Part shown: positions 12,094-22,072 of the stretch, piece by piece | Numbering within the stretch: position 1 is the first letter of the stretch | How the letters are laid out: every line of letters starts with the position of its first letter | Assembly: GCA_036496605.1 (NCBI GenBank) | Contig: DASXKV010000048.1 | Span: 1 to 64,000 of the forward strand | Source: Gemmatimonadaceae bacterium | GTDB lineage: Bacteria; Gemmatimonadota; Gemmatimonadetes; Gemmatimonadales; Gemmatimonadaceae | Direction: 5' to 3' | DNA: 64,000 nucleotides | Made by a program: the position numbers and the translations under genes | The notes under the pieces: generated by a model | Databases searched by the model: none | Seen by the model: only the letters and a program-made list of their open reading frames with translations | What the model was told of the DNA's origin: nothing

Positions 12094-13284
12094 TCACTGA
12101 CAGCGAAGCGCATAGGCGCCGTGTACGCCCGAGAAGACTACGCGGTCACTCGCGACGGCGAACCCCGAGCTCGGAATCTCGTTAGGGTCAGCGTCGAACA
12201 GGGTCGTGATGATCTGTCCGGACGCGGCATCGAGCACGAAAATGCCGAGGTTGTTGGCGAACACTCGCTGACCGCACAACGCCGATTCGTGAATCGACCC
12301 TCTGGTCGTCGTGCGCCATGCGACTTTCCCCGTCGTGGCATCGACTTCATATACGTACGTGTCATTCGTGCCAAGGTATAACCGATTCCCGGCAAGCGAA
12401 GGGCGCGCGAAGGGACCGAAGAATCCCGGCTCGGTTCTCACGCGCCAGATCTCCTGAAGCGTAAATCGATCGACGGCAAAGAATGCTCCTGCGAGAAGAT
12501 CGCTCGCGAAGAGCACACGGTCGCGTATGACCGGAGCTGAAGGAACACCGCTCCAGCCAACTGATTGCGGGGCTTGATACTCGAACAGCAGTGCGCCCGT
12601 ATTGCGGTCGAGGCCCGCGATGATACTCACACTGCTGTCGCCGTTAGGCGTCAAGCGTTTGCAGGCGGCTGCGTAGACGGTGTCGCCGCTGACTGCGAGT
12701 CCGCTGATAGCGCTGAGATACGGCCAACTGGGTCCGAGATCCGTCGTCCAGAGCGGCTGACCGGCCTTCGGACTCAAGGCGTAGACTTTGTGCGAGCGGG
12801 TTCCGACGTATACCGCGTGATCATCGACAGCAGACTGGGCTTCCGCCGGTTGAGCATCGGGCGTGAACCGCCAGCGAATTGCCCCTGTTGCGGCATCGAG
12901 CGAGATCACTTCGACTGCTTCAGCGATGTACACGGCTCCGCCGGCAGCGACGATGTTCGCGGCCGCCGGCGTTGGGCTCATCTTGACCGTGGTTTGCCAC
13001 CGCCTCGCTCCAGTCGTTAGGTCCAGCGCGAGAACCGTATTCCTCGTCTCGATATAGACCATCGAGCCGGCGATGGCGGGGAGACCGGTCCAGCCAGTAC
13101 CGCTCTCCGAGAGCGGCGCTCGCCAGAGAATTGCCCGAGCGCCGCCACCGCCGCTGGCGGTGGAACTGGAGCCGGAGCAGCCGTTCTCGAAGTTCATGCA
13201 GAGGCTGGTAGGGATACCCTCGCAACCCACGGCCAAGCAGAGGAGGAGCAGGGGCGTGACATGGAGACTACTCTTCGCCGACAT
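12094..13284 (-). CDS. PQQ-like beta-propeller lipoprotein
   Basis: The 396-residue protein has a lipoprotein signal (MSAKSSLHVTPLLLLCLAVGC) and a body of seven or eight PQQ/quinoprotein-like blades. Typical blade cores are LALDLTTGARRWQ, ISLDAATGAIRWRF, YALSPKAGQPLW, YEVDATTGKVAWR and FVLDAASGQIITT. It lacks the catalytic motifs of quinoprotein dehydrogenases, so it resembles BamB-type scaffold propellers rather than an enzyme. The ATG at 13284 is chosen for the signal peptide. It probably heads the minus-strand operon that continues into the small membrane peptide and two lipoproteins. Confidence 0.85.
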   Translation of the reverse strand: MSAKSSLHVTPLLLLCLAVGCEGIPTSLCMNFENGCSGSSSTASGGGGARAILWRAPLSESGTGWTGLPAIAGSMVYIETRNTVLALDLTTGARRWQTTVKMSPTPAAANIVAAGGAVYIAEAVEVISLDAATGAIRWRFTPDAQPAEAQSAVDDHAVYVGTRSHKVYALSPKAGQPLWTTDLGPSWPYLSAISGLAVSGDTVYAAACKRLTPNGDSSVSIIAGLDRNTGALLFEYQAPQSVGWSGVPSAPVIRDRVLFASDLLAGAFFAVDRFTLQEIWRVRTEPGFFGPFARPSLAGNRLYLGTNDTYVYEVDATTGKVAWRTTTRGSIHESALCGQRVFANNLGIFVLDAASGQIITTLFDADPNEIPSSGFAVASDRVVFSGVHGAYALRCQ

Positions 13285-13561
13285 TGTGACTCGTCCACTG
13301 AGAAAGTAGCGAACGATGGCGCCCACACGGCGAGAGGACTATACGACACTCGACGTAGTCAGATCACGAGTGACGTCAACGTCGCTCACGCTCACCTTGG
13401 CGAGCGGTCTGGCCACAACGACGAAGAGTGCTTACGGATCGGCCGGACGGGCACGCCGGAATCGAAGCGATTGTGTTGGACGCGAATCTGAAGATCCGTT
13501 TGGGTGGATGCTCTGAGCCGAGTCGTTGCCTAACGTGTGTCGGGATGTCCAGTTTCAACTC

Positions 13562-13675: not shown

Positions 13676-14434
13676 TCACGTCTCGACGGCGGCTTCGCTC
13701 GGCGCTGCCGCTGCCCGCGGCATCGAGTGGGTCGGATACTCGCGGAGCAGCCAGTAGCCGACCGCACCCCCGCCGATATCGATGAGCGCGTGAACGATCA
13801 TTGCCGGGATCACTGAACTCGTCGCGAGCACGATTGTCACCATGAACACGCCCACGAGCGTAGCCCGAATCGCGCCCCTCCAGCCCTGGTAGAGGTGACC
13901 GGCACCGAAGAGCGCGGCGACGAACAGCAGCGCGCCAACTCGTCCGAGCCACGGTGCGAACAGCCAAGGCAGATAGCCGCGGTAGAGCAGCTCCTCGCAG
14001 AAGCCCGCGGTAATCGAGAGAGTGAGAAACCATCGCTGGTCGCGAGCCGTGCGTGGCACCATGAAGGCAACATCGCCGAGCTTGGGCCGCGCGGCGATCC
14101 GTCGCTCTACGGGGAGTCGCAGCACGGACCAGAGTTGGGCGCCGAACAGGGCCAGCACGAGAACGACGACGAGGACGCCAAGTGCGAGACGCCAACCATG
14201 GGGCATCGCTAGGCCGATGTCATCCCACGTGCGGTGCGCCCTTGCCCAGATGACCAGCGCACAGAACGTAAGTATCCACTCTCCGGCTACGATTCGGCGG
14301 TAGAAGTGCGTGCGCGCTCCGGGCCGATCGGCGATGGCGGCGGCGCGGAATTGGGGCCAGAAGTACTTGTACTCGTACACCGTCATGAAGCCGATGAGGA
14401 CGGCGGCGTACACGGCATCGACGAAAGTGGGCAT
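13676..14434 (-). CDS. CPBP family intramembrane glutamic protease
   Basis: The 252-residue multi-pass protein (about seven TMs) belongs to the Rce1/CPBP (Abi) family. It shows the catalytic pair motif EELLYRG near residue 157, then FGAGHLYQG near 190 with the first conserved histidine, and HALID near 218 with the second. These polar residues inside membrane helices form the active site. The ATG at 14434 is preferred over one four codons upstream because GGAGG lies at the correct distance before it. The gene diverges from an ArsR-type regulator across a perfect inverted repeat. Its natural substrate is unknown. Confidence 0.92.
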   Translation of the reverse strand: MPTFVDAVYAAVLIGFMTVYEYKYFWPQFRAAAIADRPGARTHFYRRIVAGEWILTFCALVIWARAHRTWDDIGLAMPHGWRLALGVLVVVLVLALFGAQLWSVLRLPVERRIAARPKLGDVAFMVPRTARDQRWFLTLSITAGFCEELLYRGYLPWLFAPWLGRVGALLFVAALFGAGHLYQGWRGAIRATLVGVFMVTIVLATSSVIPAMIVHALIDIGGGAVGYWLLREYPTHSMPRAAAAPSEAAVET

Positions 14435-14444
14435 GTGGACCTCC

Positions 14445-14468
14445 ATTATTCAAATAATATTGAATAAT
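14445..14468. promoter_or_regulatory. Operator-like palindrome between CPBP and ArsR-type genes
   Basis: ATTATTCAA and TTGAATAAT form a perfect 9-bp inverted repeat with the 6-nt spacer ATAATA. It is AT-rich in an otherwise GC-rich region, lies 11 bp upstream of the CPBP start and 45 bp upstream of the regulator start, and is the right size for a winged-helix dimer. I infer that the adjacent regulator binds it and controls both divergent units. Confidence 0.7.
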
Positions 14469-14512
14469 CGCCGGATCTTGGCAAGACCGACCGCGCGCTC
14501 TAGACTCCTCAC

Positions 14513-15124
14513 ATGCCCCGACCCAAGTCACGACGCACGGCCGGCGCGCCCGCGCTTCGCCCGGCGGTGGCGGACTTGCGCGCGCTCGCGCATCCCCTCC
14601 GTCTCCGCATCATGGAGCTCTTCGCCGAATCGCCGAAGACGACGAAGCAAGTCGCGGAGCTACTCGGCGAGCCACCCACGCGTCTCTATCACCACGTCGC
14701 CGCGCTCGAGCGCGCCGGGCTCGTCGTAATCAAGGAGACGCGACAAAACCGCGGCGCGATCGAGAAGTGGTACGCCAGCGTTGCCGCGCCGCTGAAGGCC
14801 AGTGGGCCGCGCGGGAGGAATGACGCCGCCGGCCGACGTGCGCGTCGCGCTCTCGCGGCGACGGTGTTCGAGCAGGCGAAGCAGGAGGTGATGGCTATAC
14901 CACCGGGCGCAAAGCAGCGGGCGCTCATTACACGACTCATCATTCCGCTTCATCCCTCGAAAATCGCCGCGCTGCGTCAGCGGCTGTTCGACTCGGTGCA
15001 GGCAATCGGACGCGAGTTTCGGAGCGCGCCCCAAACGGACGACGCGCGTGAGGATGCAAGCGAGCGATGGGCGCTGACTCTCTCCTTCACTCCAGTCGCG
15101 ACGCCGAAGCGCTCGCGCCGGTAA
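14513..15124 (+). CDS. ArsR-type winged-helix transcriptional regulator (HTH_20)
   Basis: The 203-residue protein has an N-terminal winged-helix domain (about 20-95): LRALAHPLRLRIMELFAES, then the recognition helix in KQVAELLGEPPTRLYHHVAAL, then the wing LVVIKETRQNRGAIEKWY. The ~105-residue C-terminal part is helical and may sense a ligand or dimerise. The metal-binding Cys motif of ArsR is absent. It is the first gene of a tightly packed run (5, 30 and 23 bp gaps, then a 4-bp overlap) that continues through ankyrin, sigma, anti-sigma and CHAT genes, although a promoter inside the run cannot be excluded. Confidence 0.88.
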   Translation: MPRPKSRRTAGAPALRPAVADLRALAHPLRLRIMELFAESPKTTKQVAELLGEPPTRLYHHVAALERAGLVVIKETRQNRGAIEKWYASVAAPLKASGPRGRNDAAGRRARRALAATVFEQAKQEVMAIPPGAKQRALITRLIIPLHPSKIAALRQRLFDSVQAIGREFRSAPQTDDAREDASERWALTLSFTPVATPKRSRR

Positions 15125-15129
15125 CAGCA

Positions 15130-16500
15130 ATGAGCTCTCAACTCAGCACGCACGATCAGTTCATCGAAGCCGCGTTCTGGCACGGCTCCGCGAAAAGGGC
15201 GCAAGTGATTCTCGATGCGAATCCCTCCATCGCGAACGACATTTACATCGCAGCCATGCTCGGTGATGACGAAGCCGTACGTCGGTTTCTCGCCAGTGAC
15301 GCCTCTCTAGCAATAGCGAAGGGTGGTCCGCGACATGTCGATGCGCTGACGCATCTTTGCTTCTCATCGTTTCTGAAGGAGCACCGCGAACGGTCCGACG
15401 CGTTCGTCCGTGCCGCGACGGCGCTGCTCGATGCCGGCGCGAGCCCCAACACCGGCTTCGAGGACAAATCGCACCGGCCGCATCCCGAATGGGAGAGCGT
15501 GCTGTATGGCGCGGCTGGCGTTGCGTTTCATGCACCGCTCACCCGACTCCTGCTCGAGCGCGGCGCGGACCCTAACGACGAGGAAACGCCGTATCACTCG
15601 GTCGAGGCACCCGACAACGACGCTTTCAAGCTGCTACTGAACAGTGGAAAGTTGACGAAGGACAGCTTGAACATGATGCTGCTGCGAAAGTCCGACTGGC
15701 ATGACTATGAAGGCATACAGCTCGTGCTCGATCAGGGCGCGGACGTCAACCAGATGTCGCGTTTCGGCAAGACGGTGCTGCATCACGCGCTCATCAGCGA
15801 CAACAGACTCGAGATAATCGACCTGCTGCTCGACCGCAGCGCCGACCCATACGCGGTTGCTAATGATCTCCGCCACGGCGGTGGGTTTCGCGTGGGACGC
15901 TCGTCGACGGCGATTGCGGCGCGACGCGGTCGGCGTGACGTGCTCGCATCGATGGCGCGACGGCACATCTCCTTGAAGCTCGACGGCGTCGACGCGTTGA
16001 TCGCCGCGTGCGCTCGCGGCGACGCGTCGGCGGCGCGTGCCATCGCGGCGCGTGAGCCATCACTCATTGGTGCATTGATCGATCAGGGCGGCGAGCTCCT
16101 GGCGGAGTTCGCCGGCAATGACAATCACGACGGCGTCGCGCTGCTCATCGAGCTCGGCGTTCCCGTCGACGTGCGCTACTTCGGCGACGGGTACTATGGG
16201 GAAGCTCCCGATAGCACGGCGCTGCACGTTGCCGCGTGGCGCATGTCGAACGACACGCTCGACGTGCTCATTCGTCACGGTGCCGACGTCAACGCAAGAA
16301 ACAGAAAGGGCGAGACGCCGCTCATGCTGGCCGTGAGGGCCTGCGTCGCTTCATACTGGAGCGCACGTCGTTCGCCGCGGGCGGTGAAAGCGCTGCTCGG
16401 CGCAGGCGCAATCACCGACGGCGTACTCATTCCTTCTGGCTACAGCGCCGTTGACGAGCTCCTCACGTCTGGCGCGCAGCAAAGCGGCGGCACATTATGA
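15130..16500 (+). CDS. Ankyrin repeat protein
   Basis: The 456-residue cytoplasmic protein has no signal peptide. Ankyrin repeats are visible at about residues 90-170 (LLDAGASPNTG and LLLERGADPNDEETP), 205-255 (GADVNQMSRFGKTVLHHAL) and 345-435 (STALHVAAWRMSND, GADVNARNRKGETPLMLAV). Such repeats bind partner proteins. The start at 15130 lies 5 bp after the regulator stop codon; a longer frame from 15067 overlaps that gene and is not needed. The partner is unknown; the context suggests a role in the sigma/CHAT locus that follows, but it could equally be an independent passenger. Confidence 0.88.
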   Translation: MSSQLSTHDQFIEAAFWHGSAKRAQVILDANPSIANDIYIAAMLGDDEAVRRFLASDASLAIAKGGPRHVDALTHLCFSSFLKEHRERSDAFVRAATALLDAGASPNTGFEDKSHRPHPEWESVLYGAAGVAFHAPLTRLLLERGADPNDEETPYHSVEAPDNDAFKLLLNSGKLTKDSLNMMLLRKSDWHDYEGIQLVLDQGADVNQMSRFGKTVLHHALISDNRLEIIDLLLDRSADPYAVANDLRHGGGFRVGRSSTAIAARRGRRDVLASMARRHISLKLDGVDALIAACARGDASAARAIAAREPSLIGALIDQGGELLAEFAGNDNHDGVALLIELGVPVDVRYFGDGYYGEAPDSTALHVAAWRMSNDTLDVLIRHGADVNARNRKGETPLMLAVRACVASYWSARRSPRAVKALLGAGAITDGVLIPSGYSAVDELLTSGAQQSGGTL

Positions 16501-16530
16501 ACACCCCTCCCGCGCCGCGAGCGGAGCTCC

Positions 16531-17208
16531 ATGGCCCAGAATCGCCCACCCGAGTTGGCGCAGCTGCTCGAAGCGACCGATGCGCGCACGAGGGAAGCCA
16601 AGTGGGCTCAGTTCCTCGAGCTCCACCACCGAACGCTGTTGCATGTTTGCCGGCTTCGTGCGCGCGACTATGACGCCACGATGGACGCCTACACGTGGGT
16701 GCTCGAGCGGCTCCGCGAGAACGACTGTCGGCGATTGCGCGCCTATGCCGCGGACGGGCGAAGTACGTTCACGACATGGTTGGTCGTCGTCGCCAAACGA
16801 CTCTGCATCGACTTCGCTCGGCAGCGCTACGGCAGAGCGGATCCGCGCCATCCCGAGGAACGCGACAAAGCGCGCGAGCGTCGACGTCTCATCGATCTCA
16901 CGGCTGAGGAGTTGGACCTCGACACGATTGTCGACCCTTCGGGACGAACACCGGAGAGCGATTTCGAGGCGGCCGCTCTTCGGGAGGCGCTCCGCGAGTC
17001 GATCATTCAGCTGAGTCCCCAGGATCGACTGCTGCTTGCGCTGCGGTTCGAGGACGGGTTGACGGCCGAGCGCATCGCGCCCGTACTGAATTTCGCCTCG
17101 GTCTTTCACGTCTATCGACGCCTCAACCATGTGCTCGCGGAGTTACGCGAGCGACTCGGCGAAGGGCCATCCAGCAATCGCGCGACTTCTCTCCGTTCAA
17201 TTAAGTAG
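16531..17208 (+). CDS. ECF-like RNA polymerase sigma factor
   Basis: The 225-residue protein has sigma region 2 at about 25-105 (FLELHHRTLLHVCRLRARDY, AYTWVLERL and TFTTWLVVVAKRLCIDFARQ) and sigma region 4 at about 150-210 (IIQLSPQDRLLLALRFEDGL, AERIAPVLNFASVFHVYRRL). The linker between them is longer than in minimal ECF factors. GGAG lies just upstream of the ATG. The next gene encodes a zinc-finger anti-sigma factor, so activity is expected to be held at the membrane until a signal arrives. Confidence 0.93.
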   Translation: MAQNRPPELAQLLEATDARTREAKWAQFLELHHRTLLHVCRLRARDYDATMDAYTWVLERLRENDCRRLRAYAADGRSTFTTWLVVVAKRLCIDFARQRYGRADPRHPEERDKARERRRLIDLTAEELDLDTIVDPSGRTPESDFEAAALREALRESIIQLSPQDRLLLALRFEDGLTAERIAPVLNFASVFHVYRRLNHVLAELRERLGEGPSSNRATSLRSIK

Positions 17209-17231
17209 ATCGTGACAACGCTGGACGGAGA

Positions 17232-17846
17232 ATGAGCACCGATTCAGGATCGTTACCACACGTTTCGAACGAGGATCTGGCTGCCTATCTCGACGGCACG
17301 CTCGATCAGGAAAGGCGAGCGATCGTCGAAAGCCATCTAGCCGACTGTGATCGGTGTCGCTGGGACATGCTCGACGTCCGCGGGTTGCTCGCCGATTTGC
17401 CAGCAACGGAACAGGCGCCACGTCGCACTCCACGACGGAGGCGCAGTGCAGCCTGGATCGCGACTGGAGCAGTCGCTGCGGGCATCATCTTCTCCGCGGC
17501 GCTCCTTCGAATGCCGGCGCGCGATCAGGCGCGCCCGTCCGTCGAGCGTGGCGCTGCAGTCATCGACCGCATAGCCGTTGTGACACCAGCCGCGGATCGC
17601 GTCGTCGATGGCCCGAATGCCGTCTTCGTGTGGCGCGCAATCGAGGGCGGCGGTACGTACCGCCTAACGATCATGGATTCGGCTGGCGCTCGCCTCTGGA
17701 CCACCTCGACGCGCGATACGACGACGTCCATACCAATCAAGCCACCGTTCGCGCGTGGTCGTAACTACTTGTGGTACGTGGATGCACTCGCGAGCGACGG
17801 CCATACCGTGACCAGTGGCGCTCGGTCGTTTTCCACCGGACCTTGA
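17232..17846 (+). CDS. Zinc-finger (zf-HC2) transmembrane anti-sigma factor
   Basis: The 204-residue protein has an N-terminal anti-sigma zinc finger with His35, Cys39 and Cys42 (HLADCDRC), one transmembrane helix at about 73-93, and an extracytoplasmic beta-sandwich of ~110 residues (IAVVTPAADRV, AVFVWRAIEGGGTYRL, YLWYVDALASDG). The N-terminal finger should hold the upstream sigma factor; the outer domain would sense a signal or be cut by a protease. The stop codon overlaps the TTG start of the CHAT gene (TTGA), so the two proteins are probably made in a fixed ratio. Confidence 0.92.
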   Translation: MSTDSGSLPHVSNEDLAAYLDGTLDQERRAIVESHLADCDRCRWDMLDVRGLLADLPATEQAPRRTPRRRRSAAWIATGAVAAGIIFSAALLRMPARDQARPSVERGAAVIDRIAVVTPAADRVVDGPNAVFVWRAIEGGGTYRLTIMDSAGARLWTTSTRDTTTSIPIKPPFARGRNYLWYVDALASDGHTVTSGARSFSTGP

Positions 17847-20710
17847 GTTTGCATGCACTTCGGCCGCTCATCGCGGTGCTGGTGCTCGGCTGCTCCCAAC
17901 ATTCGCCAGATCCGATTCGATCCTTGGCCGGCGACTCACTGTATGCTCGCGGCGAATTCGGCGCGGCACGCGCTGCATGGCGCGGCGAGCTCGCGAGCAC
18001 AACGCTCGCGGATCAGCGCCGAGCGCACCTCCTTACCTCAGTCGGCCTCGCTTCGTACCACATTGCGGATTACGAGGAGGCGGAGAGAGTCGCCGACAGC
18101 GCGCTCGACATCGAGCATGCGCACGGCATAAACGGCGCGGAGCTGTTCAGAACCGAAAACGCGCTCGGGCTCATTGCCTGGAACCGAGGGCATCTGTCCG
18201 TCGCCGAGACGCGATTTCAAGACGCGGTGCGCACGGCGCGGTCGATCAACGACACCGCGTCGATCGCGAAGGCGTTGGCGAATATTGGTCTCGTCCTGAC
18301 GGATTACGCGGACTTCCAGGCAGCGCGTTCTGCCTTTCTCGAGGCGCAAGCCGCTTCCCATTCAATCGGCGACAGCAGAACGGAAGGCAACGCGCATACA
18401 AATCTGGCGATGGTTGCTCTCCGGATGGGCGATCTGTCCACTGCCGAGGAGCAGGCCAACGAGGGATTGCGTCTCTATCACCAGACAGACTTCGAGATCG
18501 GCGAACAGAACGCGCTCGGGCAGCTGGCGACGGTCGAGGCAGCGAAAGGGAACCCACGCGCCGCGTTCGCCGCAATCGACAGCGCGATGACGATCGTGAG
18601 GCGCCACGGGCTCAAACAGGAGGAAGCGTCGGATCTCGAGATCCTCGGAGATCTATACGCTGAAGCTGGTGATCTGCGCGCGGCGGCACATTACTACGAT
18701 CAGTCGCAACAGCTGTTCGCTGCGTCCAAGATCGAGCTGGAGGCAGCGAATGTCTTGCGCGATCGCGCCGCCGTGGACGCCGCGCTCGCCGATACAGTCT
18801 CGGCGCGCGAGCGAGCCCACCGTGCACGCCTCGCGCACCATGGCCTGGGCGCTATCGGCGAAGAGCTCGATGATCGGTTTCTGGAGATCGAGCTCGCGGC
18901 CAATGATAACGTGGGCCTCGACCGGGAGCTCGACGAGGCGGATTCGCTGGCGCGCTCGATAGGCAGCGCGCCGGCACGCGTTCAGTCGGCTCTGGAGCGA
19001 GCGACGGTGCTGGAGCGGCGCGGGAAATCACAACAGGCATTGTCCCGCCTCGCGTCCGTGCGGACATTGCTCCGCGAAAGCGGAGCAGAGTATCGATGGC
19101 AAGATGACGCGCTCCGTGCACGCGCATTTGCGCAGTTGGCGCTCCTGGATTCCGCTGAGCAGGCCGGACGCGAGGCGATTAGCATCATCGAACACGTCCA
19201 GAGCGGGTACCAGTCGGGTCCTCTTCGCACGGCATACGCGGCTCGCCAGAATCAGGTCTACGCGGATCTCGTCGCCGTGCTGTTGCGCGAGGGGAAGACG
19301 GCGGCGGCATTCGAGACGGCTGATGCCGCCCGCGGCCGCGCGACAACCGAGCGACTGTCATCCGCACACCGGCAGGGTGAGCGAAAGAGCACGGCCGGTT
19401 CGGTGCTGCAGGCGACTTCTCTTCGCGCACAGATCGACACGCTGGCGGCGCACCTCGAGGCGACAGAGAACGGTGACTCGCGAGGAGGGGGAGGGGGAGG
19501 GGGAGGCAGCGATCAACGTGTCATCCAACGCGACCTGCGCGATCGGCTGACGCGCGCGCGCACCGAGTACGAAGCATTGCTGGCGCGCGCCGATGTAGGG
19601 GATGGAGCCGAGCTCGTTGGCCTGATGCCAACGCGCGCAGCACGAGTGCAGGGGAGCCTCGTGCGCGACGAGGCGTTGCTGACCTACACCGTCGCGCAGG
19701 ACACGTTGTTCACCTTCGTCCTGAGGCGTGACACCATTCTCGCCTTCTCCACCGCACAGCGGCGTGCCGATCTCGGTTCTCAGGTGCGCGTGCTGCGAGA
19801 TCTCCTTCAGCAGCCGACGACCAACGGCCGCGGCGCTGCCGCAGCCGAAGCACTTTACGACTTACTGATTGAACCGGCTGTTCGCAGCGGACTGCTCGAT
19901 GGCGTGAGCCGATTGCTCATCGTCCCTGACGGGGTGCTCACGTATCTCCCGTTCGCCGCGCTGCAGGACCACCGCGACGGAAGATTTCTCATCGAGCGTC
20001 ATCTCCTCACTTTTCTTCCATCGGCAGCGGCGCTGCCTGTCATGCGCTCGCGTGATCAATCGGCGACACGTACGCCATGGCCGCCGAGGTCTTCCGTCGC
20101 GCTCGCACCGTTCCCACGTGACCTGCCGGCCAGCGCCATGGAGGCGGAACGCTTCCGTGCGCGTTTGCCTTCCGCGACGGCGCTCATCGACAATCGGGCA
20201 ACCGAGCATGCGTTGCGCGAGTCGCTCGCGGCCGGCGGCGTCGTTCACATCGCGAGCCACGCCGAGCTGAATCGGATGAATCCGATGTTCTCGGAGATTC
20301 GCCTCGCGCCAGGCGTTCCGGGTGCGAACGACGATGACGGCCGACTCCAGCTCTTCGAGGTATTCGGTTTGGAGATACGGAGTCCCCTCGTCTTTCTCTC
20401 GGGATGTGAGACTGGAGTAGGAGCCGCGTCGTCGAGCGACGTCGAGCAAGGCGAGGACTATGCGACGCTCGCGCGCGCTTTTCTCTTCGCCGGAGCGCGC
20501 GACGTCGTCGCGACGCTGTGGCGAATCGATGATGCCGGCGCCGCCGAACTGGCCGATCGGTTCTACGCGCACCTGCCAGCGGCCTCGCCGACCGAGGCAC
20601 TCGCGCTCGCCCAGCGCGAGATGCTGCGTCAGACTCGTTATGCGGCAGCATACTATTGGGCAGGTTATCAGGTCAGCGGTGCCGAGCATCTGGGAAACAT
20701 GGAGCAGTGA
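17843..20710 (+). CDS. TPR-CHAT caspase-like lipoprotein
   Basis: From the TTG at 17843 the protein has 955 residues and a lipoprotein signal with lipobox VLGC (Cys17), so it should act outside the cytoplasm on a membrane. TPR-like helical repeats span about 30-480. A linker near 545 contains eight glycines, followed by a short coiled region. The CHAT domain covers about 620-950: LIVPDGVLTYLPFAAL, then HIASHAEL with His806, then FLSGCETG with Cys855, then LARAFLFAGARDVVATLW. His and Cys form the expected catalytic dyad of a clan-CD protease. The upstream ATG options fall inside the anti-sigma gene and lack a signal peptide. The target protein is unknown; the coupled anti-sigma factor is an obvious candidate. 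Confidence 0.92.
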   Translation: MSLHALRPLIAVLVLGCSQHSPDPIRSLAGDSLYARGEFGAARAAWRGELASTTLADQRRAHLLTSVGLASYHIADYEEAERVADSALDIEHAHGINGAELFRTENALGLIAWNRGHLSVAETRFQDAVRTARSINDTASIAKALANIGLVLTDYADFQAARSAFLEAQAASHSIGDSRTEGNAHTNLAMVALRMGDLSTAEEQANEGLRLYHQTDFEIGEQNALGQLATVEAAKGNPRAAFAAIDSAMTIVRRHGLKQEEASDLEILGDLYAEAGDLRAAAHYYDQSQQLFAASKIELEAANVLRDRAAVDAALADTVSARERAHRARLAHHGLGAIGEELDDRFLEIELAANDNVGLDRELDEADSLARSIGSAPARVQSALERATVLERRGKSQQALSRLASVRTLLRESGAEYRWQDDALRARAFAQLALLDSAEQAGREAISIIEHVQSGYQSGPLRTAYAARQNQVYADLVAVLLREGKTAAAFETADAARGRATTERLSSAHRQGERKSTAGSVLQATSLRAQIDTLAAHLEATENGDSRGGGGGGGGSDQRVIQRDLRDRLTRARTEYEALLARADVGDGAELVGLMPTRAARVQGSLVRDEALLTYTVAQDTLFTFVLRRDTILAFSTAQRRADLGSQVRVLRDLLQQPTTNGRGAAAAEALYDLLIEPAVRSGLLDGVSRLLIVPDGVLTYLPFAALQDHRDGRFLIERHLLTFLPSAAALPVMRSRDQSATRTPWPPRSSVALAPFPRDLPASAMEAERFRARLPSATALIDNRATEHALRESLAAGGVVHIASHAELNRMNPMFSEIRLAPGVPGANDDDGRLQLFEVFGLEIRSPLVFLSGCETGVGAASSSDVEQGEDYATLARAFLFAGARDVVATLWRIDDAGAAELADRFYAHLPAASPTEALALAQREMLRQTRYAAAYYWAGYQVSGAEHLGNMEQ
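19482..19506 (+). repeat. GGGGGA hexamer repeat encoding polyglycine
   Basis: Three GGGGG blocks separated by single A residues, preceded by GAGGAG, encode a run of eight glycines in the CHAT protein linker. Gain or loss of one 6-nt unit keeps the frame but adds or removes two glycines. The tract can also form a very stable G-quadruplex on the coding strand. Confidence 0.8.
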
Positions 20711-20716
20711 CGGCGT

Positions 20717-22072
20717 TCAGAAGTTCTTCCAGTACACACCGCCTTTGTTCGCCTCCCCGGCGGCGTTTGGACTGGCGAGGTTGTTGACGGCGTTCGCAAC
20801 GCTCGTATTGGGAGGCCCGAGCCCGCCGAGGTTGAACCTAACGACAGTGCCGTTCCCGATCAGCCAGGCCATCGCCTGGCCGCAGCTCACTCCAACCGCA
20901 ACCGTGCCGGCGGCATTGACGGCGTTCGCGGCGGATGTGCCACTGCAGTATTGCGGTGTGTTCTCGAGCGCTGTCGCCTGGCTCCACGCGCCGTAGACGC
21001 CATTCGCGAGTGTTCGCGTCCACATAACCGCCAGTCCATTGCTGTTGCCGACGATGATCGTACCGTCAGCGTTGATGGACCACGCGGCTGCCTGCGTCGC
21101 CCCCGCTACGGGCTGGAGATGTGAGGGCGCGCCACTCGCATCCCAGAAGAACGCATGGCAGCAGGTCACGCCATCCATACCGGTGGCCATCCCGAGTCCA
21201 TTGATGCCTTGAATCCATCCTCCGTCGAGGATATCGGACGGAAGGGTCAGGAGCGTGACCTGCCAGCCGTTGTCGGTTTGCGTCCATATGGCTGGGTTGT
21301 GCCGTTTGAGTGTCAAGTTGCCGCCCAGGATCAGTCGTCCTTGCGCGTTCGTCGCGACGGAGCGGGCGGAGCTCTGCCCCGTACCTAACGAGGGAAGCTC
21401 GGTCAGGATCCATGGACCAGCGGCGCCGTTGGCGCTCGTCCAGACAGCGGCGAGGCCGAGGGGATAATTAGTGACGACCTGGCCAGCGATGAGCGAGCCG
21501 CTCTGATCGATTGCATACAGTTGGCTTCCGCTTTGAATCGAGACCAGGCCGACCTGTGGATCCCAGAGCGCGCCGAGGGAGCCATTCGAGCGGGCCTGTC
21601 CGACGATCTGGCCCCCGTCATTGATCGCCTGCCCGACGACGGGAATTGCCGTCGCGAGCGTGACGGCGAACGCGTCGCTCCCGATTCCCTGCTTCAGTGT
21701 CGACGTCGTCACGACGACATCGTAGAGGTCGATCGCGGCATCGCTGGCGATGGAGACGTTCGCGACGAGCTGCGACGAGCTGACGAATGACGTGCGGTTG
21801 ACGACGATCTTTCCATTGGGCACGCCCCGGAGGTTCCAGCTCGCTTTCGATCCATTATCGAAGCCGGAACCGTTGATCTGCACGTCGAGGTTCGTTCCTT
21901 GAAACGCGGACGCGGGATTCGCCGACGATACGCTGGGTGATCCCGACGACACCTTGAATCTCACCGTCGGTTCGCTCGGAGCGCGTGACGCGCTGGAATC
22001 GCCGCACCCGGCGAGCATCACCGCGGCAGCGATCACGAGAGGTGTGAAGAAACCGCGACGCATAGGGAACAT
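20717..22072 (-). CDS. HAF-repeat extracellular lipoprotein with IPT/TIG-like domain
   Basis: The 451-residue protein has a lipoprotein signal (VIAAAVMLAGC), an IPT/TIG-like beta-sandwich at about 45-135 (NPASAFQGTNLDVQINGSGF) and a C-terminal region of HAF-type repeats, each with a pattern such as AINDGGQIVGQA, AWSINADGTIIVGNS or AVNAAGTVAVGVS. Such proteins are secreted or surface-bound and of unknown function. Two ATGs (22072 and 22063) both allow the signal peptide; GAGGA is closest to the first. The gene is convergent with the CHAT gene, with only 6 bp between the stops and no terminator visible. Confidence 0.85.
   Translation of the reverse strand: MFPMRRGFFTPLVIAAAVMLAGCGDSSASRAPSEPTVRFKVSSGSPSVSSANPASAFQGTNLDVQINGSGFDNGSKASWNLRGVPNGKIVVNRTSFVSSSQLVANVSIASDAAIDLYDVVVTTSTLKQGIGSDAFAVTLATAIPVVGQAINDGGQIVGQARSNGSLGALWDPQVGLVSIQSGSQLYAIDQSGSLIAGQVVTNYPLGLAAVWTSANGAAGPWILTELPSLGTGQSSARSVATNAQGRLILGGNLTLKRHNPAIWTQTDNGWQVTLLTLPSDILDGGWIQGINGLGMATGMDGVTCCHAFFWDASGAPSHLQPVAGATQAAAWSINADGTIIVGNSNGLAVMWTRTLANGVYGAWSQATALENTPQYCSGTSAANAVNAAGTVAVGVSCGQAMAWLIGNGTVVRFNLGGLGPPNTSVANAVNNLASPNAAGEANKGGVYWKNF

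Follow-up and report, generated by a model that had tools for sequence, protein, structure and literature searches.

In Myxococcus xanthus, the DdvA/DdvS pair, which controls an island of genes of the cyclic-oligonucleotide-based antiphage signalling system (CBASS) and of clustered regularly interspaced short palindromic repeats (CRISPR) (PMC12288465), consists of an extracytoplasmic function (ECF) sigma factor and the membrane zinc anti-sigma factor that holds it; the single chain of the latter also carries an extracytoplasmic TPR-CHAT part (PDB 8ROT, 8RW5). In the type III-E CRISPR system known as CASP or Craspase, a TPR-CHAT protein with a His/Cys dyad, Csx29, is combined with a sigma inhibitor, Csx30, and with CASP-sigma (PMC10028731); that system is cytoplasmic and RNA-triggered, and Csx30 is not a membrane zinc anti-sigma factor. 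Here we analyze a locus of Gemmatimonadaceae bacterium (phylum Gemmatimonadota; assembly GCA_036496605.1, labelled G000 in our survey, with a single CHAT gene in the genome), in which an ECF-type sigma factor, a membrane anti-sigma factor and a predicted exported TPR-CHAT lipoprotein are encoded by consecutive genes; the window denotes the whole stretch of 64,000 nucleotides analyzed, i.e. positions 1-64,000 of contig DASXKV010000048.1.

Cleavage of a single-helix anti-sigma factor at site 1 and then at site 2 is the logic of RseA/DegS/RseP and of RsiW, from which the pathway considered below would differ in that a CHAT protein of the caspase fold, encoded together with its substrate, is the proposed site-1 enzyme. 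Separase (clan CD, family C50), a eukaryotic protease that cuts after arginine, shares with the window CHAT the joining of an alpha-solenoid to a caspase-fold protease. For the EACC2/caspase conflict systems with DUF1822, too, a caspase-fold protein is predicted to pair with an ECF sigma factor (PMC8195603); the caspase family is a different one, and the passages considered do not mention a zinc anti-sigma factor of the membrane together with an exported TPR-CHAT. In the open full-text literature (subscription literature being outside the scope), CHAT together with sigma factors yielded CRISPR-related papers only, and caspase together with ECF sigma yielded the EACC2 systems.

A conserved sigma factor, anti-sigma factor and CHAT module

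The conserved unit comprises an ECF sigma factor, a membrane anti-sigma factor and an exported TPR-CHAT protein, to which a dedicated lipoprotein is added in the clade of the window. The sigma factor of the window (16531-17208, plus strand, 225 residues) scores below the threshold in Pfam and is clear in NCBIfam (sigma70-ECF, 1.2e-17); it adjoins a 204-residue anti-sigma factor (17232-17846, plus strand) with a zinc domain (zf-HC2, 2.8e-09), i.e. the pairing typical of a zinc anti-sigma factor (ZAS). The CHAT gene (17843-20710, plus strand, TTG start) encodes 955 residues with a CHAT domain over the family cut-off (PF12770, 4.6e-57), and the lipoprotein gene (20717-22072, minus strand), which the initial annotation did not list, belongs to the module.

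In a survey of up to 395 Gemmatimonadota genomes, most strong homologues of the sigma factor (E < 1e-40, a step covering 150 genomes) adjoin a CHAT gene, as well as an anti-sigma gene in many genera, and the order sigma, anti-sigma, CHAT recurs repeatedly among the approximately 140 loci read with profiles. When the 95 matches at the top of the list of Ig-type anti-sigma factors were compared with 153 CHAT domains from 395 genomes by listed coordinates, 67 of the 95 lay within 5.5 kb of a CHAT domain, against a chance expectation of about 2.6 of the 153 CHATs near any zf-HC2 gene; the figure of 67 is a lower bound, given that the genomes include metagenome-assembled ones with contig ends and that many of the other 28 anti-sigma factors proved to be linked once read or lie at such ends. 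The linkage of CHAT with sigma and anti-sigma, whose absence in relatives would have told against the initial annotation, is conserved across Gemmatimonadota far above chance, by coordinates as well as by reading of the loci. That CHAT and the anti-sigma factor are coupled is close to certain.

The linked pairs include 46 co-directional and 21 opposite ones, and the module occurs in three arrangements, namely, a co-directional operon, a convergent pair and a single anti-sigma/TPR-CHAT fusion (L080), in which the zinc domain, membrane helix, FN3-like domain, TPR and CHAT follow one another in one protein. In a tree built from 87 CHAT domains by a quick method (support from the Shimodaira-Hasegawa-like approximate likelihood ratio test only), class I (20 rows, support 100, co-directional), which includes the window, is sister to class II (23 rows, support 99, co-directional or fused); class III (28 rows, support 99) is largely convergent, and a small extra co-directional group contains 5 rows (support 100). 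CHAT genes at L082, L083, L102, L108, L119 and L141 adjoin a sigma factor and membrane proteins with outer domains other than FN3, possibly, further anti-sigma types coupled to CHAT. A tblastn search of plasmids returned, among the matches listed, only TPR-CHATs with less than 33 percent identity and no Ig-type anti-sigma factor.

The lipoprotein contains a TIG/choice-of-anchor domain and HAF-like repeats, the latter recognized by eye. In 16 whole genomes, most of them chosen because they bear the module, all 13 matches to it adjoin a sigma/anti-sigma(/CHAT) module, and 14 module loci, each of the same type as the window's, hold 15 copies. Judged by these associations, it is a dedicated further partner in class I, and a candidate signal receptor or output.

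Among described systems, the closest match is with DdvA. A profile of 28 anti-sigma factors that are 20 to 45 percent identical to that of the window (alignment A1) matches DdvA residues 9-96, i.e. the zinc domain and the helix (E = 3.1e-05), and the profile of the module CHATs matches the same chain (E = 8.5e-11), which also ranks second in a Foldseek search. As in DdvA, the sigma-binding protein has a zinc domain and a single membrane helix; whereas DdvA is one chain, the window encodes the anti-sigma factor and TPR-CHAT by separate genes, with CHAT exported on its own, and only one relative (L080) is fused. Further differences are the FN3-like domain and the invariant linker arginine of the module anti-sigma factor, and the extra lipoprotein of class I. 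The module is, accordingly, a Gemmatimonadota variant of the DdvA type in split form. Although its dyad aligns with that of Csx29, the CHAT protein is not a member of the Csx29 family (32.6 bits with the NCBIfam model versus a cut-off of 300), and the window genes that were scanned revealed no Cas gene, no dedicated search for Cas7-11 having been made. Context gave no support for a defence role, PADLOC yielding no strong match in the module genes or in ten further genes of the window.

The CHAT dyad and the linker arginine

The CHAT protein is predicted to be exported almost throughout the family and, in the window's clade, usually as a lipoprotein. The lipobox of the window CHAT (VLVLGC, with Cys17 at 17891-17893) is intact, as the initial annotation had it; of the 62 module CHATs examined, 60 have a hydrophobic signal region at the N terminus. 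The strict lipobox pattern is present in 11 of 20 class I proteins, more of which have a cysteine right after the hydrophobic stretch, whereas most of those in classes II and III resemble ordinary secreted proteins. The AlphaFold2 (AF2) model of the window CHAT has a mean predicted local distance difference test score (pLDDT) of 86, and the structures at the top of the Foldseek matches are separase, which ranks first, DdvA and Csx29. A run of glycine codons, GGGGGGGG (19487-19510), lies in the linker that joins TPR to CHAT, where the model is of low confidence.

The His/Cys dyad previously noted in the window CHAT is likewise in place. The HxxxH motif (20246-20260, plus strand) contains His802, which is invariant in classes I and II, and His806, the second histidine of HIASH, which aligns with His585 of Csx29; Cys855 (codon at 20405-20407, plus strand) aligns with Csx29 Cys627, and His585 and Cys627 form the catalytic dyad of Csx29 (PMC9729208). 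The catalytic histidine is kept in 19 of 20 class I and in 24 of 24 convergent CHATs, and both dyad residues also persist in nearly every CHAT without a linked Ig-type anti-sigma factor. By contrast, none of the 23 class II proteins (among them L062, L070, L080, L228 and L233) has this histidine, its place being taken by Y, F, A, S or Q, which corresponds on the tree to one loss plus one further change (L232), while the cysteine is kept in all tree rows, rows without it (fragments) having been excluded from the tree.

The anti-sigma factor consists of the zf-HC2 domain, a single membrane helix (about residues 74-92; 17451-17507, plus strand), a disordered linker and an FN3/Ig-like outer domain (17577-17843, plus strand; pLDDT about 90-97), for which Foldseek found FN3 and CopC matches; both the hydropathy maximum and the AF2 model agree with the one transmembrane helix that was originally assigned to it along with an outer domain. 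Because the zinc domain precedes and the FN3-like domain follows this helix, and CHAT is predicted to be exported, the outer parts of the two proteins can meet; their predicted locations, on which the initial annotation depended, are compatible. The L080 fusion agrees, with TPR-CHAT directly after the anti-sigma outer domain in one chain and on the same side.

In alignment A1, the sole invariant linker residue is an arginine (28 of 28), which in the window is Arg106 (in VER-GAA; codon at 17547-17549, plus strand), and in a larger set an arginine occupies this position in each of the 92 sequences of anti-sigma type that share this linker and outer domain, never being replaced by lysine; these rows are homologous and so do not represent 92 independent events, with 89 of the 92 17-mers around the arginine distinct. 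The following residue is G in 35, D in 16, A in 15, S in 12 and E in 9 sequences (87/92), the preceding one is mostly bulky or His (L, H, V, M, F, T), and the other surrounding positions are free. An artefact of alignment with MAFFT was rejected as the source of the invariance: in 200 rounds of linker shuffling and realignment, the maximum in any column was 22 of 28 arginines, and usually 6 to 11. In the AF2 model, Arg106 lies between the helix and the FN3-like fold in a segment with pLDDT < 50, i.e. predicted to be disordered. This context (L/H/V/M-R-G/D/A/S/E) resembles a protease site, making the arginine a candidate P1 residue, or else a docking residue. It is not found at that column in anti-sigma-like proteins with other outer domains (L082, L083, L108, L119, L141), nor in truncated anti-sigma rows. 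The control, exported proteins with FN3-like domains that are not anti-sigma factors, gave a mixed outcome, the arginine being absent from L219, L220 and L128 and present in L125 and L237.

A candidate release pathway and its alternatives

On balance, we consider it probable, if only slightly, that CHAT is the site-1 protease of the anti-sigma factor, or at least its docking partner, and that a generic M50 protease (RseP-type) rather than the CPBP protease encoded near the locus finishes the release. In the resting state, the zinc domain would hold the sigma factor at the membrane; the TPR solenoid, the TIG/HAF lipoprotein or both would sense an envelope signal; CHAT would then engage the linker, with cleavage after Arg106 (site 1) and loss of the outer domain, and the M50 protease would cut within the membrane (site 2), freeing the sigma factor. 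The structural study of DdvA reportedly proposes autoproteolysis by CHAT in trans, then RseP. Candidate genes for M50 site-2 proteases are present elsewhere in the genome, and several clan CD peptidases cut after arginine, including clostripain, gingipain R, separase and metacaspases (PMC4357240). Cutting at the arginine is the most likely, if still putative, step. The more specific and more tentative proposal, to which we give a little less than even credence, is that bacteria encode and export a protease of the caspase fold that serves a single ECF anti-sigma factor, cutting it after an invariant arginine of the juxtamembrane linker, with one clade having replaced the catalytic histidine and kept the cysteine and the target arginine, via new chemistry or as an arginine-binding receptor.

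Several observations weigh against cleavage by CHAT. The aspartate by which separase reads the P1 arginine, D2151, is K670 in Csx29 (PMC9729208), and in the sequence alignment its position is Ala901 in the window CHAT, such that a separase-type aspartate was discarded as the specificity determinant and no P1-Arg pocket was identified; Csx29 itself does not cut after arginine; one anti-sigma row (L069) has a proline after the arginine; and the class I CHATs, being lipoproteins, may sit in either membrane. In addition, class II modules retain the linker arginine despite the loss of the histidine, so that conservation of the arginine cannot rest on ordinary dyad catalysis alone. Together with Ala901, this makes a non-cutting receptor the main alternative: TPR-CHAT, as a pseudo-protease, would bind the linker arginine in a caspase-type pocket and signal by conformation, or would shield the linker from, or expose it to, another site-1 protease. 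The single loss of the catalytic histidine in class II, followed by drift (Y/F/A/S/Q) with the cysteine, the first histidine and the anti-sigma arginine kept, fits such a receptor, as do the absence of a known P1-Arg acid at the separase position and the allosteric switching of Csx29-type CHATs (PMC10028731). We nevertheless deem it rather unlikely, considering that the dyad persists in the window's clade, in the convergent CHATs and in nearly all unlinked ones at the frequencies given above, and that an arginine in a predicted disordered segment, followed by small or acidic residues, looks like a cut site and not a folded interface. Distinctly less probable still is that CHAT and the TIG/HAF lipoprotein belong to the regulon of the sigma factor, as its outputs, and have other targets, the linker arginine being cut by an unrelated trypsin-like site-1 protease. 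ECF operons often contain their own target genes, and a few Ig-type anti-sigma factors with no CHAT within several kb keep the arginine (L203, L209, L216); however, the genomes of these three carry other CHAT genes, CHAT is physically joined to the anti-sigma factor in the L080 fusion and in DdvA, and the linkage persists for convergent CHAT genes, which are not downstream in the sigma operon.

The initial annotation had proposed a wider system in which an ArsR-type regulator, an ankyrin-repeat adaptor and a CPBP protease acting second all belong, with the module, to one proteolysis-controlled sigma locus. The positions given there for the six genes are correct: the CPBP (Rce1-like) protease gene at 13676-14446 on the minus strand (Pfam, 4.5e-18), the ArsR-type gene at 14513-15124 (Pfam HTH_20/ArsR) and the ankyrin gene at 15130-16500 (Pfam Ank), both on the plus strand, followed by sigma, anti-sigma and CHAT. 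The tight spacing in the window, with gaps of 5, 30 and 23 bp between the plus-strand genes and then a 4-bp TTGA overlap, was equally confirmed and speaks for one system, but a search of the first approximately 80 loci for homologues of the ArsR, ankyrin and CPBP proteins found none next to the module in the relatives. These include the nearest relative, L121, which has 63 percent sigma identity and is the only relative with the sigma factor from the scan of the genome collection; its locus consists of sigma, anti-sigma, CHAT and the TIG/HAF lipoprotein. A stretch just upstream of the sigma gene, CACATTATG...CCGCGCCG...GAGCGGAGC (window 16485-16534), is common to the window and L121, even though the ankyrin gene is missing from that place in L121, and so ArsR and the ankyrin protein are best seen as local neighbours. 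Moreover, CPBP and ArsR have an inverted repeat of their own, the perfect palindrome described previously (14445-14468, no strand; ATTATTCAA-6-TTGAATAAT, two perfect 9-bp arms with a 6-bp spacer), which lies between the divergent genes, is operator-like and is likely the ArsR operator of a separate small regulatory unit. Nothing favours CPBP as a site-2 protease, and given the M50 candidates it is not needed. As a conserved entity, a five- or six-gene system is thus refuted, and as an account of the window it is very improbable, a strain-specific role being possible.

Bacterial caspase-like proteases are widespread, and very few have a known substrate; for this module, a likely substrate and a single residue to mutate, Arg106, can be named, and the protease can be expressed apart from its target, unlike in the one-chain DdvA. 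If the proposed cleavage is correct, it would add a dedicated site-1 protease of the caspase fold, and the Csx29/Csx30/sigma pathway and DdvA would be part of a broader, mostly non-CRISPR coupling of TPR-CHAT proteins to sigma release. The sister clade without the histidine, class II, is a natural experiment on the conversion of a protease to a receptor.

Adjacent sequences and other FN3-like proteins

The shared stretch upstream of the sigma gene may hold the promoter of the sigma operon; a search for ECF promoters upstream of sigma in class I loci found no common −35/−10 motif. The locus adjoins a gene for a PQQ/BamB-like beta-propeller protein (12097-13326, minus strand), which showed no sign of belonging to the module.

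The FN3-like domain of the anti-sigma factor also occurs in lipoproteins at L125:3025-4101 (minus strand), L219:6780-7937 (minus) and L268:10-867 (plus), at least two of which lie in loci that also hold anti-sigma modules, with the arginine in some only. A secreted family (TVFLTFGGL...) with a C-terminal FN3-like domain, found at L128:1173-2612 (minus), L237:7476-8999 (plus) and L267:1861-3219 (minus), is located twice at less than 2 kb from a convergent CHAT module.

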